Assembly: GCF_016623465.1 (NCBI RefSeq)
Contig: NZ_JAEDAJ010000002.1
Coordinates: forward strand, 384,093 to 448,092
Direction: 5' to 3'
DNA from: Brachybacterium halotolerans
GTDB taxonomy: Bacteria; Actinomycetota; Actinomycetes; Actinomycetales; Dermabacteraceae
DNA length: 64,000 nucleotides
Shown here one piece after another: positions 10,325-16,011 of the stretch. Below the pieces are notes generated by a model that saw only the letters and a list, made by a program, of their open reading frames with translations, searched no databases and was not told where the DNA came from. Every line of letters begins with the position of its first letter. Position 1 is the first letter of the stretch. The translations under genes and the position numbers were made by a program.

Positions 10325-10702
10325 GTGTCGATCGATCGACGTGCGTGGGTGCAAGCCGCTTCGCGAGGGATGAGCAAGGACCAACGTGACGCGCTCATAC
10401 GGATGGTGGGCGACTACTTCTCGCGTCCAGGCGCCTCCGACCAGGACCCACCCTCTACAGAGGAGAGGGACAGCGAGGACATGGCGACCCTCGAGGCGAT
10501 CGCGAAGACGATCCGTCAGGAGGACTCCCTGGAGCAGGCAGCCGCCCGCGCGCGCAGTGCTCAAGTCAAGTTGACGGGCTGGGTTCGTGCGGCAGCCCTG
10601 TTCGGCGAGACCGTGCCGATGATTGCCCGGCAAACAGGAATGATGAAACCCACGGTCAGAAGGCGACTCCGGGAGCTCCGTAAAGCCCCCGAGACTCCGT
10701 GA
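10325..10702 (+). CDS. Putative helix-turn-helix DNA-binding protein
   Basis: 125 residues with a GTG start and CGGAGG 8 bases upstream. The C-terminal part from about 85 (VRAAALFGETVPMIARQTGM then MKPTVRRRLRELRK) has the layout of a helix-turn-helix with a basic recognition helix, like small sigma-region-4 or resolvase-type domains. The N-terminal part is charged and helical. It is followed 21 bases later by a perfect 11-bp hairpin. Probably a regulator of the island; targets unknown. Confidence 0.55.
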   Translation: MSIDRRAWVQAASRGMSKDQRDALIRMVGDYFSRPGASDQDPPSTEERDSEDMATLEAIAKTIRQEDSLEQAAARARSAQVKLTGWVRAAALFGETVPMIARQTGMMKPTVRRRLRELRKAPETP

Positions 10703-11204
10703 CGGACCTGCGTGCACAGAGCAGTGCCCCCTCCCGGGCTTCAAGGACAGGAGGGGGCACCGGGATCTAGTCTACCGGCCAAGCGGGCAGAGCGTCACCC
10801 CAACGGCTCGATACGAAGGAAGCGCCCCACCCCCGGGCAGGGAGGTGGGGGCGCCGGTCGAGCGGAGCGACGACCCCGCTCGAGGCGACCAGTCCCTTCC
10901 CTGGAACTCCCGATGGCCGCCAGCGCCCACGCTACGTCACCGATGCTGTAGACGGGGGCGTTCCACCCAGCCCGCTTCCGCGTCTCGGATCATCCACAGT
11001 TATATTCGAGCTGGGTATCGTGCCTATCGACGCACCGCTGCTCAGAAGTGTCGGCACTCGCATTCCCATACCGCTCCCATCCCCTCCTTCATTGATGCCT
11101 CACCGAGCCGTGCGCCTCACGGCACCCCTCGCGTCGCATGAGCACTCCAGCTATCGTCGTGATCGGCGGCACACCCGCCGTCTCGGACGTACTAGGAGGC
11201 TCGC
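10703..11204. other. Intergenic region upstream of the repeat-peptide cassette
   Basis: Holds the terminator at 10724-10760, a second GC hairpin (GCGCCCC.. / ..GGTGGGGGCGC, about 10822-10854), and a stem TCGAGCGG/CCGCTCGA at about 10857-10886. A 26-codon frame at 11138-11218 (MSTPAIVVIGGTPAV...) overlaps the start of the repeat peptide and could act as a leader, but it has no ribosome site I trust. An AT-richer patch TTATATTCG near 11000 may be promoter DNA. Confidence 0.4.
10724..10760 (+). terminator. Perfect 11-bp hairpin terminator
   Basis: Arms GTGCCCCCTCC (10724-10734) and GGAGGGGGCAC (10750-10760) pair without mismatch. It lies 21 bases after the HTH gene's stop. There is no T-run, as is common for high-GC actinobacterial terminators. 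Confidence 0.65.
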
Positions 11205-11462
11205 ATGAGCATCAGTGATGACGACATCAGCAGCACGGGACCGGGCATTGGCGAAGGCCCCGCTGACGGCGGCGCTAATCCGCATGGCCACGACGGGGGT
11301 GCGGACGGCACGGCAGCAGCTGGCGAAGGCCCTGCTGACGGCGGCGCCAATCCCAATGGCCACGACGGCGGTGCCGACGGCACGGCAGCAGCTGGCGAAG
11401 GGCCCGCTGACGGTGGCGCTAATCCGCATGGCCACGATGGCGGTGCGGACGGCACAGCGTGA
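11205..11462 (+). CDS. Tandem-repeat peptide, candidate substrate/precursor of the adjacent hydroxylase
   Basis: 85 residues. After a 15-residue N-terminus (MSISDDDISSTGPGI) the protein is three repeats of 24 residues (16-39, 40-63, 64-85), each containing GPADGGANP(H/N)GHDGGADGTA. The repeats use only G, A, D, E, N, P, H and T: no Cys, Lys, Arg, aromatic or bulky aliphatic residue, so no ordinary folded core. AGGAGG at 11194-11199 is an excellent ribosome site, and the stop overlaps the GTG of the JmjC-type gene. I infer a small secreted or cytosolic peptide whose His, Asn or Asp residues are hydroxylated by the next gene's product, i.e. a RiPP-like precursor. Alternatives: a metal-binding repeat peptide, or a low-complexity linker protein. 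No cleavage site is obvious. Confidence 0.75.
   Translation: MSISDDDISSTGPGIGEGPADGGANPHGHDGGADGTAAAGEGPADGGANPNGHDGGADGTAAAGEGPADGGANPHGHDGGADGTA
11250..11459 (+). repeat. Three 72-base tandem coding repeats
   Basis: Units at 11250-11321, 11322-11393 and 11394-11459 (last one 6 bases short). They differ at only a few positions, mostly third-codon changes; the clearest replacement is His to Asn in unit 2. High DNA identity implies recent amplification or ongoing homogenisation. Confidence 0.9.
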
Positions 11463-12694
11463 GCACTTTCAACATCCGTGACGAGCGCGGGTCGAGCAAT
11501 CGGCCCGCGCTCGCGCGTCTCACTCGTCTCGACACAGACACCTTCTCTCGCGAGCACTGGGGCGAAATGCCCCTACTGACCCGCCGCGCGGACGACTTCC
11601 ACGACCTCTTCAGCGCGGAAGCGGTCGATGAGCTCGTTGCCGAGCGGGCGCTGCGGACGCCGTTCGTGCGCATGGCATCCGAAGGAAGGGTGCTGAACCC
11701 ATCGATGTTCACCGCCCCCGGCGGCGTCGGGGCCGAGGTGGGTGACCAGCTCGACTCCGGCAAGGTGCTCGAGAACTTCGCGAACGGTGCGACGCTCGTG
11801 CTGCAGGGCCTACACCGCACGTGGGAGCCGATCTCTCGGTTCACTCGCCGTCTTGTCGAGGAGTTGGGGCATCCCGCGCAGGTGAATGCCTACATCACCC
11901 CCGCCTCCTCACGCGGATTTGACCCTCACTACGACACCCACGACGTGTTCGTCATCCAGATCGCCGGTGCCAAGCGCTGGACGATCCACGAACCGGTGCA
12001 TCGCCATCCGCTTCCGGGCCAGCCCTGGAGCGACTATCGCCCCGAGGTTGAAGAGGCAGCATCTGGCGAGCCCGTCATCGACGAGGTGTTCGAACCCGGT
12101 GACGTGCTCTACCTTCCTCGCGGGTGGTTGCACTCCGCAGTTGCCCGAGGGGGAACATCCATTCACCTCACGATCGGGGTACGCGCAACCACACGGCATG
12201 ATCTTCTGCAGCGCATCCTCGCTGCCGCGGGGGACGAGGAGGCGCTCCGTGCTCCTCTCGCACTCGGCGTTGACTACACCGACTCCGCCTCGCTCTCGGG
12301 GGATCTGGCCGAGACCATCCGGGCCACCCGCGATCTCCTCGAGCACTCGATCGATGACACGGCGATCGCTGCTTCCATGCAGCGTCGCTTCGTCGAGGAC
12401 ACAAGACCGGCACCGGTCCGCCCGCTGGCAACTGTCGATCTCCTCTCCGACCTCGGCCCGCAGACTCTCCTGGCGTGGCGCGACGCCCTGCAGACGCGGA
12501 TTGAAGATGACGGGGACACTGTGCGGATTGTGCTGCGCACCAAGACAGTGACGCTTCCCGCGGAGGCCAGCGCCGCCATCCACGCATTGCATCAGACCGA
12601 GCAGAGGGCTGGGAAACTACCGGCCCTCGACCACGAATCCTCTCTTGTGGTCGCCCGGCGCCTCCTGCGGGAGGGCATCGCGGTGCCACGGTGA
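11459..12694 (+). CDS. JmjC/cupin-type Fe(II)/2-oxoglutarate hydroxylase (ribosomal-oxygenase-like)
   Basis: 411 residues. The double-stranded beta-helix core shows PHYDTHD with the HxD metal motif (His157, Asp159) and the distal histidine in LYLPRGWLHS (His225), the facial triad of JmjC/Cupin_4 hydroxylases. KRW at 172-174 is placed for 2-oxoglutarate contact. An N-terminal helical part and a C-terminal helical/winged region follow the ROX family layout (bacterial YcfD/RoxA, human NO66 and MINA53), which hydroxylate Arg or His in ribosomal proteins. Here the gene overlaps the stop of the repeat peptide (GTGA) and its own stop overlaps the next GTG, so I infer that the repeat peptide is the substrate. 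A housekeeping uL16/uL2 hydroxylase is the alternative. Family assignment is firm; substrate is not. Confidence 0.85.
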   Translation: MSTFNIRDERGSSNRPALARLTRLDTDTFSREHWGEMPLLTRRADDFHDLFSAEAVDELVAERALRTPFVRMASEGRVLNPSMFTAPGGVGAEVGDQLDSGKVLENFANGATLVLQGLHRTWEPISRFTRRLVEELGHPAQVNAYITPASSRGFDPHYDTHDVFVIQIAGAKRWTIHEPVHRHPLPGQPWSDYRPEVEEAASGEPVIDEVFEPGDVLYLPRGWLHSAVARGGTSIHLTIGVRATTRHDLLQRILAAAGDEEALRAPLALGVDYTDSASLSGDLAETIRATRDLLEHSIDDTAIAASMQRRFVEDTRPAPVRPLATVDLLSDLGPQTLLAWRDALQTRIEDDGDTVRIVLRTKTVTLPAEASAAIHALHQTEQRAGKLPALDHESSLVVARRLLREGIAVPR

Positions 12695-13650
12695 CAGCAC
12701 AAGTCCCCACCAACGTCCCGCCGACTTCTCCCGACGGCGATGCAGGGAGCTGGGCTCCGTGCAGTGACCGTTCGCGGGACCGAAGGGACTCGCTCGTCGG
12801 CACCGCCGGCTTCGGAGCCAAGTGGCTGCTTGTGGAGATCGACGGCTCCTGGGGCGAACATGCTTTTCTCCAGTCCCGGATCAACACGGACATCGGAAGG
12901 GCCATCGTCCGCCGGGCCGAAGCTGCCGGGCTGCGCCCCGTCGCCATCCGCCGCTTCGGGCGACGGGCCGATGAACGCCGGGCATCATCCGGACACCGAT
13001 GGGCGATCGCCGACGCCCGGCAGGGCCGAATCTCGATGCGCTGGGGCAGCGTTGATGACCCCGCTGAACTGCTCGAAATCCCGCTGGACGGCTCAACAGG
13101 TCACCCCACAACGGAACCGGCGTATCTCGTGTGCACCCACGCACGGCACGACAGATGCTGCGCCGTGCGCGGCCGGCCCGTTGCACAAGCTCTCGCCCAT
13201 GCAGACCCGGAGAACACCTGGGAGTGCTCGCATCTCGGCGGCGATCGCTTCGCTACCACGATGATCGTCCTGCCCCACGGGCTCTGCTATGGCAGGGTCC
13301 CTGCCGAGCGCGCCCACGAGATCCTCACCGCAACTCGCGAGGGCAGGATCGTCCGGGATCTCTTCCGCGGTCGCAGCAGCCTCCCCAACGTCATCCAAGC
13401 CGCACAGGCTTTCGCCCGGCAAGAGCTCGACGAGGACCACATCGATACTCTCCCACCACTCCCAGACGCCATCCACCAAACAGGGTCGCAATGGACGGTT
13501 GCCCTCGCCCACGCCCACCAGACCGTTCGTGTGCGCCTGAATGAAGACTGGTCACAACCGCTTCTCAGCACCTGCGCCGCACGCATCGCAGCACCCGTGC
13601 GCACATACGAGCCCGTGTCCCTCCACTTCACCTCCCCACCTGGCCAGTGA
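12691..13650 (+). CDS. Suc/Fer-like (Apd1-type) thioredoxin-like [2Fe-2S] protein
   Basis: 319 residues. It belongs to the 'sucrase/ferredoxin-like' family: an N-terminal Cys24 segment (WAPCSDRSRD...LVGTA), then the thioredoxin-like ferredoxin core with CTHARHDRCC (Cys148, Cys156, Cys157) and WECSHLGGDRFA (Cys179, His181). Related Apd1 proteins bind a [2Fe-2S] cluster with Cys and His ligands, so a redox role is likely. It starts at a GTG overlapping the hydroxylase stop, so all three cassette proteins are made in a coupled way. It may supply electrons or keep the hydroxylase iron reduced (inference). Cytoplasmic; no signal peptide. Confidence 0.85.
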   Translation: MTAQVPTNVPPTSPDGDAGSWAPCSDRSRDRRDSLVGTAGFGAKWLLVEIDGSWGEHAFLQSRINTDIGRAIVRRAEAAGLRPVAIRRFGRRADERRASSGHRWAIADARQGRISMRWGSVDDPAELLEIPLDGSTGHPTTEPAYLVCTHARHDRCCAVRGRPVAQALAHADPENTWECSHLGGDRFATTMIVLPHGLCYGRVPAERAHEILTATREGRIVRDLFRGRSSLPNVIQAAQAFARQELDEDHIDTLPPLPDAIHQTGSQWTVALAHAHQTVRVRLNEDWSQPLLSTCAARIAAPVRTYEPVSLHFTSPPGQ

Positions 13651-13907
13651 ACCACCGCGCGGACAAACTGAAAAGATGGGCACGTCCTAGAACAGCCGCA
13701 GATCGAGGTGCCTCGTCCCCGTCGCGCACCGTTCAAAACGGTGCATTTGTGACAGATCTGCAAGCTGCAGGTACGGCCCTTCGCCGACGGTCTCCTGCAC
13801 CCGGGCGACACGCCGGGGCTCGGGACCGGGCCGGCGCAGCCCACGACTACTCGCCCGCTTACCTGCCGGTGAACCGGCTCACCGACGGCACCATGCACGA
13901 CTGGTGA
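13647..13907 (+). CDS. Doubtful small frame after the cassette
   Basis: 86 residues from a GTG that again overlaps the preceding stop (GTGA), ending just before a strong terminator. The sequence is Arg/Ala-rich and not obviously protein-like, apart from the C-terminal part (HDYSPAYLPVNRLTDGTMHDW). It could be a fourth coupled gene or a chance frame. Confidence 0.22.
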   Translation: MNHRADKLKRWARPRTAADRGASSPSRTVQNGAFVTDLQAAGTALRRRSPAPGRHAGARDRAGAAHDYSPAYLPVNRLTDGTMHDW

Positions 13908-13970: not shown

Positions 13971-15332
13971 TCAGGACATGCTGCGGTGGGCACCGAGCAG
14001 TTGTCGGGCGAGGTCGACCGCCATGAAGATGATCAGGGACACCCCGAGAAGCGGCAGGAGGACTCCGAGCATCGCCGCGGCGGCGAGGAGGATCCCATAG
14101 GCGCCGGCGGTGTCGACCCGTCGCCCCAGCGGCTTCGGCAGCCCGGCCCCCGGTCCCTTCGGTCGCCTGCGCCACCACATGCGGTAGCCGATCACGATCA
14201 GGGTGATCACGACTGCGGCGACGGCGATGAGCACGAGCTGGTTCACCCAGCCGAACAGGATCCCCATGTGGAGCGAGATGCCCGCTTCAGCGAGCTTCCC
14301 GGCCAGCGGCCAGTCTTCGAACTTCACCGAATCCACAACGCTTCCCGAGCTGGGGTCAATCGCGAGCGAGTCCTGCTTGAGAGGCCACGATCGCTGGACC
14401 TGGCTGACAGTCCACGCTCCACCGTCGTTCGCAGGGGTGATTGCGACGGGATCACCGAGGTCGTGGCCGCGGGCGACCTCGAGGACCTTCTGAGCGGTCT
14501 GCGGGACATCATCCTGCGCAACGGCTGGGGTGTTGGTGGTGTCGGTGGCGACGGTGGGGGTGGACCAGTGCAGGCTCGCGCGTAGGGCGGAGACGTTCCC
14601 TCCGGCGAACTGGGACCAGGTCAGGCCCGTGGCAGAAAGGAAGAACAGTCCGATCGCGGCCCAGATTCCGACCGTGGCGTGGAGGCTCATCGACCGCTGC
14701 CGCTGCGGGCCCTTCCTGGTGGGCAGAAGGTAGGCGCGGGTGGAGCGCTTGCGGATCTTGCGGGTGATCCAGGTGATGATCCCGCTAAGCGCGAGGACCC
14801 ATAGCCAGCTGGCGGCGAGCTCGCTGTAGACGCGACCAGGGTCCCCAAGATGCAGATGGCGATGCATGTCATCGAACCACGTCCGCAGCGGCAGCCACTC
14901 CCCGAACGTGTTCAGCACCCCGGTCACCTTGCCGGTGTGAGGGTCGACGAACGCCGTGAGCTGGCGATCCTTTTCCGCTGACGGAGAATCGAAGGTGACG
15001 CGGGTCGTGGACTCCGCGTCCTTGGGCGGCCGGATCTCGGCGATCGTGCCATCTGGCACGGCGGCTCGCGCGGCCTGCACCTGCTGCGCCAAGGCGACGC
15101 TCTCTCCGTTCGCGGGAGCGCTCGCGTGCAGCTCCTTGTCGTAGACGACCTGCTCGATCTGCGGGGTCAGCGCATACAGGATTCCCGTGACGGCAGCGAC
15201 CAGGAGGAACGGGGCGATGAACAGACCCACGTAGAAGTGCAGGCGCAACAGGAGCTCGCGCAGCTCGTCTCGCAGACGTCGAGGTTTCGCGGTGCCGCCG
15301 CCAGCGGGGCGCACGGGAGCGTGAGTCGTCAT
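13971..15332 (-). CDS. PepSY-associated membrane protein (PiuB-like)
   Basis: 453 residues. The N-terminus has a basic patch and a first membrane helix (LHFYVGLFIAPFLLVAAVTG), followed by a long extracytoplasmic region with PepSY-type sequence, then HRHLHLGDPGRVYSELAASW and a second helix, a further external domain, and C-terminal helices. This is the PepSY_TM architecture of iron-regulated or metal-related membrane proteins. It follows the DUF5134 gene in the same direction (52 bases). The pair probably works at the membrane on a metal; copper is suggested by the partner's His/Met-rich loop, iron by the family. It converges on the repeat-peptide cassette. Confidence 0.8.
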   Translation of the reverse strand: MTTHAPVRPAGGGTAKPRRLRDELRELLLRLHFYVGLFIAPFLLVAAVTGILYALTPQIEQVVYDKELHASAPANGESVALAQQVQAARAAVPDGTIAEIRPPKDAESTTRVTFDSPSAEKDRQLTAFVDPHTGKVTGVLNTFGEWLPLRTWFDDMHRHLHLGDPGRVYSELAASWLWVLALSGIITWITRKIRKRSTRAYLLPTRKGPQRQRSMSLHATVGIWAAIGLFFLSATGLTWSQFAGGNVSALRASLHWSTPTVATDTTNTPAVAQDDVPQTAQKVLEVARGHDLGDPVAITPANDGGAWTVSQVQRSWPLKQDSLAIDPSSGSVVDSVKFEDWPLAGKLAEAGISLHMGILFGWVNQLVLIAVAAVVITLIVIGYRMWWRRRPKGPGAGLPKPLGRRVDTAGAYGILLAAAAMLGVLLPLLGVSLIIFMAVDLARQLLGAHRSMS

Positions 15333-15384: not shown

Positions 15385-16011
15385 TCACATCAGGGCGAGC
15401 ATGAGGGCCATCCCTGCAGCCATCAACAGGTGGCAAGCAGCGTGAACGCGGTGCCCACGCTCGCGAAGGATCCGCACGAGCCACCACACGGCGACCACGA
15501 AGCTCAGGCTCACAGCGACCCAGTTCACGGTGGTCGCCCACGCTGGTGCGGGAGTCATCTGCATCGGCATCGAGTCCATCGACCCGCCGCCGTGGTGAGC
15601 GGCATGCTCATCCGAGGACATATCCATCGCGTGTCCCATCAGCAACGGCATCGCCAGCAGCATCCAGACCATCGCCGCGTTCAACACGAGATGCGTGAAG
15701 ACGCCCACGCGCTCGACCCAGCCGTGGACCGAGGGCAATCCGGCGAGCATCAGCACACCGAACACGCTGAAGATGATGACCTGCACCCACGTGCCGACCT
15801 GCCCGACCGGGCGCCACACCATCAGCAGCATCGCCAGACTCATCACCAGGTGGTTCACGTGCACCGCGGTCGCCACCGGCCCCTGATGCGCAGCATGGTG
15901 CGGGTCTGAAGTACCGACAGAACGACGAGCCTGGGCCAAGTGCAGGATGCAGATCACCGCCGTCACTACGAAGACGACGGACAGGAGCACGGAGTACGGG
16001 GCTTCGATCAC
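15385..16011 (-). CDS. DUF5134-like multi-span membrane protein with His/Met-rich loop
   Basis: 208 residues with about six membrane helices. A loop near 130-155 is rich in Met and His (MDMSSDEHAAHH, then SMDSMPMQM), typical for binding copper or other soft metals. Additional histidines occur near helix ends (LHLAQ, HHAAHQ, HVNHL). It is the promoter-proximal gene of a two-gene unit with the PepSY protein. Family known mainly from actinobacteria, function not established; metal handling is my inference from the loop and neighbour. Confidence 0.7.
   Translation of the reverse strand: MIEAPYSVLLSVVFVVTAVICILHLAQARRSVGTSDPHHAAHQGPVATAVHVNHLVMSLAMLLMVWRPVGQVGTWVQVIIFSVFGVLMLAGLPSVHGWVERVGVFTHLVLNAAMVWMLLAMPLLMGHAMDMSSDEHAAHHGGGSMDSMPMQMTPAPAWATTVNWVAVSLSFVVAVWWLVRILRERGHRVHAACHLLMAAGMALMLALM

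Follow-up and report, generated by a model that had tools for sequence, protein, structure and literature searches.

A 64,000-nucleotide stretch of Brachybacterium halotolerans DNA (NCBI RefSeq assembly GCF_016623465.1, contig NZ_JAEDAJ010000002.1, positions 384,093 to 448,092), called the window here, carries a three-gene cassette that encodes an Asp-rich repeat peptide, a JmjC-type cupin oxygenase and a Suc_Fer-like protein. An Asp-rich open reading frame (ORF) lies directly upstream of 121 of the 123 cupins that share at least 40% identity with the window enzyme (close cupins hereafter), and a Suc_Fer gene lies directly downstream of 99 of 122, so the linkage of peptide and enzyme is not a matter of chance. 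The set looks like an undescribed chemical modification of acidic peptides that is widespread in the Actinomycetota. On sequence grounds, the reading we favour, and hold to be somewhat probable, is a system resembling those of ribosomally synthesised and post-translationally modified peptides (RiPPs), in which the JmjC enzyme would oxidise Asp residues in the repeats and the Suc_Fer protein would likely be the electron donor. The parts of the cassette are listed below.

11194-11199, + strand: ribosome-binding site AGGAGG of the peptide gene, five bases before the ATG (direct reading)
11205-11462, + strand: putative precursor, an Asp-rich repeat peptide of 85 aa, ATG to TGA, with leader-like residues 1-15 MSISDDDISSTGPGI
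11250-11321, + strand: repeat unit 1, residues 16-39 (repeat analysis)
11322-11393, + strand: repeat unit 2, residues 40-63 (repeat analysis)
11394-11459, + strand: repeat unit 3, residues 64-85, 22 residues (repeat analysis)
11459-11462, + strand: GTGA stop-start overlap of the peptide and JmjC genes (direct reading)
11459-12694, + strand: JmjC_2/Cupin_4 Fe(II)/2-oxoglutarate oxygenase, 411 aa, with H157/D159/H225, K172, R66, H119 and R120 (Pfam, alignments)
12691-12694, + strand: GTGA stop-start overlap of the JmjC and Suc_Fer genes (direct reading)
12691-13650, + strand: Suc_Fer-like protein, 319 aa, with C148-x7-C156-C157 ... H181-x-G-G-D185, an HxGGD variant (Pfam, motif comparison)

Most of the gene structure given in a preliminary description of this DNA is confirmed. 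The coupling of the three genes by GTGA overlaps is seen at 11459-11462 and 12691-12694, the ribosome site of the peptide gene is as good as claimed, and the HxD...H triad is intact, with H157, D159 and H225 invariant in a 16-row alignment. The three repeats of 24 residues were accurate for the first two units, while the third has only 22, and the label of a Suc/Fer [2Fe-2S] protein stands for the family but not for the cluster, as the ligand motif reads HxGGD instead of HxGGH. The enzyme matches JmjC_2 (PF08007) at E 5.3e-31 and is the single PF08007 match of its genome, and the third gene matches Suc_Fer-like PF06999 at E 1.5e-19 (71.2 bits; cut-off 34.9). A 4-base overlap between the JmjC and Suc_Fer genes is possible in 75 of the 132 relatives with an adjoining Suc_Fer. 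The cassette has the gene of a putative precursor peptide beside that of an enzyme that would modify it, an arrangement expected of RiPP systems.

The enzyme was sought in overlapping samples of 396 genomes of the order (64 matched at E<=1e-10), 394 genomes of the class (87 matched) and 296 genomes of the phylum (37 matched), the last two at E<=1e-30. Four class genomes with a match (G598, G738, G536 and G572) were left out of the loci; identical proteins were collapsed and those under 250 aa dropped, leaving 178 enzymes. The enzyme is present in 4 of 47 genomes of the family sample, the window genome counted, and, among the 110 genera sampled from the order, in 28 (E<=1e-10, with a few distant PF08007 proteins among them). 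Fifteen loci were obtained by scanning named genomes, including Nesterenkonia, Microbacterium, Glaciibacter, Agromyces and Dactylosporangium. In the linkage counts by cupin identity the window itself was excluded, as were locus L157, whose Asp-rich ORF was false, and loci with fewer than 250 bases upstream or 600 downstream for the respective flank.

Beyond the close cupins, the Asp-rich ORF was found upstream of 29/34 cupins at 33-40% identity and 5/15 below 33%, and Suc_Fer downstream of 28/35 and 5/15. Suc_Fer was directly downstream of none of the 16 peptide-less cupins with both flanks readable. As a control, other long ORFs of the window and 11 loci had an Asp-rich ORF upstream in 21 of 248 cases, a figure for which the start rule was looser than in the main count and from which 14 instances of the peptide itself had been removed (35/262 before removal). 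The window peptide, sought in 297 genomes of the order with at most 18 candidates scored per genome and with other core types out of reach, gave 7 matches (its own genome included), all 7 beside the enzyme. The preliminary description had named a hydroxylase occurring mostly without any repeat peptide as one outcome that would refute action of the enzyme on the peptide; the opposite was found. It had also asked whether the pair co-occurs with varying repeat number; unit number does vary, from one to four in peptides of the window's core type. Comparison of 19 loci, with flanks of 1.5 to about 9 kb, revealed no larger conserved cluster: only the peptide, cupin and Suc_Fer genes recur widely, and no other family among the 25 largest gene groups is present in more than 4 loci.

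The window peptide consists of a 15-residue head followed by units starting at residues 16, 40 and 64, and its internal repeat score was matched by none of 1000 shuffles. No Pfam or NCBIfam family matched it at E<=1, and the peptides of eight relatives gave only weak matches to curated families, all under cut-off. Internal repeats beyond those of shuffled sequences are present in 114/121 upstream peptides of close cupins, 24/29 of those at 33-40% and 5/5 of those below 33%. The relatives' peptides are under purifying selection, as judged from their codons: between L012 and L018 the substitutions by codon position are 2, 1 and 17, with 17 synonymous and 2 non-synonymous codons, and synonymous changes also outnumber non-synonymous ones in the remaining eight pairs. 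Within the window, the three units differ from one another mainly at third codon positions.

According to text patterns, the cores can be divided into five types. Type A, that of the window, reads EGxADGG(A/S)NPxGHDGGADG; type B is like EGPADGGAxGxPGx(H/Q)DGGADGGA; type C is almost pure DGGA; type D is like GDADSGDSDATQVDPSGSDPAG, and type E like DGTDGDATDTTDGD. On a FastTree tree of 182 enzymes, core type changes 22 times, compared to 102.7 times after shuffling, and none of 200 shuffles was as low. Type A comprises 42 peptides with 113 matched units, in which the residue preceding the G of GH takes 12 kinds. In type B, 43 of the 78 matched units have H before DGG and 23 have Q.

The composition of 155 cores points to the residue on which the enzyme may act. 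Of these, 57 have no His, 96 no Asn, 103 no Arg and 136 no Lys, and 22 contain none of the four. Ala is missing from one, and Asp and Gly from none. Since His, Asn and Arg are absent from many cores, Asp is the best general target. The peptides were chosen by an Asp criterion, so the presence of Asp in all is partly by construction, and for this reason the argument is based on which other residues are missing. A His or Arg target, implied in the preliminary description, was set aside as a general rule on this composition; His in type A remains a candidate.

In the mechanism we propose, the ribosome would make an acidic precursor with a short N-terminal leader followed by tandem repeats. In many families the leader-like head has a motif like (L/I)xD(D/E)D(I/M)xT, and in the repeats, where it is set among Gly, Ala, Ser and Thr, Asp returns mostly at intervals of 2 to 4 residues. 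The JmjC enzyme, translated together with the precursor, is predicted to bind the leader and acidic core through Arg and His residues typical of linked enzymes, and would use Fe(II), O2 and 2-oxoglutarate to oxidise one Asp side chain after another, with beta-hydroxyaspartate as the most likely product. The Suc_Fer protein of HxGGD form would most likely hold the enzyme iron reduced. Beta-hydroxyaspartate was chosen as the product because AspH-type oxygenases hydroxylate Asp or Asn and because this residue occurs in a RiPP; AspH is described as a 2-oxoglutarate oxygenase of Asp and Asn side chains, and PesHI as the enzyme that makes beta-hydroxy-Asp in a RiPP (PMC13060819). The earlier proposal that the enzyme acts on the peptide in cis is well supported genetically by the near-constant pairing, and the action itself is what we infer from it. 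A more far-reaching version, in which a phylum-wide undescribed peptide class would be converted by a single JmjC enzyme from ribosomally made Asp repeats into genetically encoded, metal-binding poly-beta-hydroxyaspartyl polymers of tunable length, with a dedicated Cys2-His-Asp [2Fe-2S] protein, is put forward tentatively and is rather doubtful; metal binding is one role that the product might have.

The enzyme itself possesses the JmjC_2 domain with the HxD...H triad. Its sequence matches the solved structures of NO66, MINA53, YxbC, a Cupin 4 family protein (4csw) and YcfD. The best-scoring is the histidyl hydroxylase NO66 (E 5e-36, profile positions 15-307), and the 4csw match spans 151-403, reaching through the C-terminal part. 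H157 and D159 are present in 155/155 peptide-linked and 24/24 unlinked cupins, and H225 in 154 linked (one gap) and 24 unlinked. The metal triad and K172 are therefore common to linked and unlinked PF08007 proteins. In contrast, R66 occurs in 153/155 linked cupins compared to 4/24 unlinked ones, H119 in 142/155 compared to 4/24, and R120 in 154/155 compared to 7/24. These extra basic residues appear to suit an acidic substrate.

Several observations weigh against the oxidation of Asp in the repeats, and they are considered here together with the explanations that they favour. The GHDGG His of type A is H in 108 of 113 units and, as noted, the top-scoring solved relative is a histidyl hydroxylase. 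These two facts favour the possibility that modification in cis does occur but consists of His or Asn hydroxylation where these residues are present, or of desaturation, cross-linking or backbone cleavage; 2-oxoglutarate-dependent macrocyclisation in RiPPs is reportedly the subject of a 2025 paper. We consider this fairly unlikely, as the same enzyme clade serves the many cores without His or Asn, and Asp is present in all families.

A second group of observations concerns the peptide. Seven of the 121 peptides of close cupins (L055, L056, L058, L062, L073, L095 and L148) have repeats not above those of shuffles. The leader-like pattern, a loose one that could also arise by chance, was found in 107/155 peptides and 27/61 of type B, and is missing from 48 and 34, respectively. 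No recognisable peptide accompanies L019 and L067, both close cupins, and elsewhere in the fetched stretches of these loci there are just unconvincing ORFs. No match of RRE type, a domain often seen in RiPP systems though not obligatory, was found by Pfam in 16 members, and no transporter or protease recurs in the 19 loci compared; a protease or exporter is common in RiPP clusters, not strictly defining, and none belongs to the set in the stretches read. The linked peptides without repeats (L055, L056, L062) and the missing maturation protease or exporter would agree with a peptide that is an acidic partner, regulator or docking scaffold of an enzyme whose substrate is something else. This explanation is judged improbable, since a head followed by repeats in varying number suits a substrate more than it does a fixed partner, as does the agreement of core types with the enzyme tree. 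That the enzyme is simply a ribosomal oxygenase with a ribosomal protein as its substrate, and the peptide and Suc_Fer incidental neighbours, would agree with PF08007 membership and the matches to NO66, MINA53 and YcfD, but is very improbable given the peptide linkage of close cupins compared to that of other long ORFs (counted by the looser rule) and the Arg/His signature of linked enzymes.

Also counting against the oxidation of Asp repeats as proposed, shared ancestry could explain part of the residue signatures, because a clade was compared with outgroups. Ancestry of the linked clade is the plain alternative explanation for the R66/H119/R120 signature. The last point concerns Suc_Fer: among 21 genomes with the enzyme and no adjoining Suc_Fer, 4 have an HxGGD form elsewhere, 14 only forms of the H type and 3 none. 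Apart from these points, the three close loci L055, L056 and L062, each with an upstream Asp-rich peptide lacking repeats beyond shuffles, may show that repeats are not essential.

The Suc_Fer proteins carry a residue change that follows the cassette. The Apd1/Aim32 ligand motif is described as C-x8-C-x(24-75)-HxGGH, the reducible iron being bound by the two His (PMC11138216). In 132 JmjC-linked Suc_Fer proteins, C148, C156, C157 and H181 are invariant, and the second His is replaced by Asp in 128 and by Cys in 4. The window protein belongs to PF06999, but with Asp at the second His it lacks the C-x8-C-x(24-75)-HxGGH motif, the replacement being that of 128/132 linked proteins, and so was not filed as Apd1-type. 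When PF06999 was sought separately in 60 class genomes, 38 had a match, and 30 of 41 places were read, several genes being shared with the set of 132. All 13 places beside a cupin (window included) had HxGGD, compared to HxGGH in 16 of 17 places away from one. The one place that departs from this, L224, belongs to genome G452, where enzyme and peptide lie at another site (L105).

Both flanks could be read at 118 close loci with the peptide, and 21 of these lack an adjoining Suc_Fer. The 4 distant HxGGD forms mentioned above all come from one family, the L019 genome has a distant Suc_Fer of HxGGC form, and no Suc_Fer was found in the L020 genome. From its distribution in linked, unlinked and Suc_Fer-less genomes, it can be seen that the HxGGD form tracks the system and that Suc_Fer is not indispensable in every host. 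The ferredoxin-like reductant suggested earlier remains plausible; it is strengthened by the linked HxGGD form and weakened by the 21/118 loci without an adjoining gene and the 3/21 genomes without any.

JmjC hydroxylases in RiPP pathways are already known, and the cassette shares features with several described systems. Like the ribosomal oxygenases NO66, MINA53 and YcfD, the enzyme has a PF08007 domain, the HxD...H triad and K172; unlike them, it is accompanied by its own acidic repeat-peptide gene and a Suc_Fer gene and has the R66/H119/R120 signature. According to two papers, the JmjC/cupin enzymes BipG and PbsQ hydroxylate Orn in RiPP precursors (PMC12707348, PMC12257519). Like these biphenomycin-type enzymes, BpmG among them, the window enzyme is a JmjC-type hydroxylase with a RiPP precursor, its role here being a proposed one. 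BipG, BpmG and PbsQ carry out a single tailoring reaction, on Orn, and their clusters also encode an MNIO, a B12-radical SAM enzyme and an arginase, whereas in the set that recurs here no modifying enzyme other than the JmjC one is evident, and it is found with Asp-rich repeats. Bregman et al. 2025 (PMC12710340), in section 6, report PF08007 proteins with RRE-like folds and bacterial homologues in RiPP-like contexts; JmjC PF08007 proteins near RiPP-like genes are the shared feature, and an Asp-repeat precursor and a Suc_Fer partner are not described in that section. The C-x8-C ... H-x-G-G-x arrangement resembles that of Apd1/Aim32-type [2Fe-2S] proteins (PMC11138216, PMC8482512), from which the JmjC-linked forms differ in the second His. 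The combination of an Asp-repeat precursor, a single-enzyme trio and an HxGGD Suc_Fer was not found in the literature searched (open PMC text).

If the proposed reading is true, the cassette would be a common and simple modification system with one enzyme, one precursor and no adjoining exporter or protease seen. Asp repeats with several oxidations would then have a natural source, the choice of residue by JmjC enzymes could be followed in many natural pairs of enzyme and substrate, and there might be a new [2Fe-2S] ligand set tracking one partner enzyme. Additionally, a testable role would be given to peptides that match no Pfam or NCBIfam family above cut-off (nine tried).

In the phylum of the L020 genome, 10 of 188 genomes had an enzyme match. 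L192 of this phylum has a complete trio, with a peptide of DADADASD type whose head contains LTDDEIETL. Three further loci, L195, L198 and L202, have, beside a distant JmjC_2 gene, longer upstream proteins with TDxDSG-type repeats and a hydrophobic segment. Upstream of a distant JmjC_2 gene, L203 has a 105-aa peptide with a Gly-Gly boundary that resembles NHLP-type RiPP leaders. These four loci are leads, not members. Plasmids gave 206 matching records and phages 3, every one below 60% identity. Four plasmid loci were read, from Streptomyces clavuligerus, S. virginiae and two cyanobacteria. In S. clavuligerus (L187:2317-2463), a 48-aa peptide with SLEPDEIEVI and Asp-containing repeats of IADxDP type is encoded beside the cupin gene, on its upstream side, and no Suc_Fer match was found in that record. 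The S. virginiae locus has an upstream 45-aa peptide of another kind, and the two cyanobacterial loci have long proteins in place of the short peptide.

Upstream of the operon, the pattern GTCAASCC-N24-TACGCT was found in all seven Agromyces or same-genus genomes searched (L010, L011, L012, L014, L018, L022 and L024). With a further match at L204 it occurs 8 times, compared to 1 match of the reversed control pattern, and may be a dedicated promoter. The pattern was not seen by eye in the window. No strong match to the consensus strings of IdeR, Zur, Rex or CRP boxes recurs upstream in 18 loci.

Around the cassette in the window, an 86-codon ORF (13647-13907, + strand) overlaps the Suc_Fer stop through another GTGA; it is probably spurious, as it falls in no group among the 25 largest gene groups of related loci. 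About 500 bases upstream, at 10325-10702 on the + strand, a 125-aa helix-turn-helix-like protein is encoded, its matches all under cut-off. Downstream on the - strand are genes for a PepSY_TM protein (13971-15332, PF03929, E 6.4e-73) and a DUF5134 protein (15385-16011, PF17197, E 3.3e-20).

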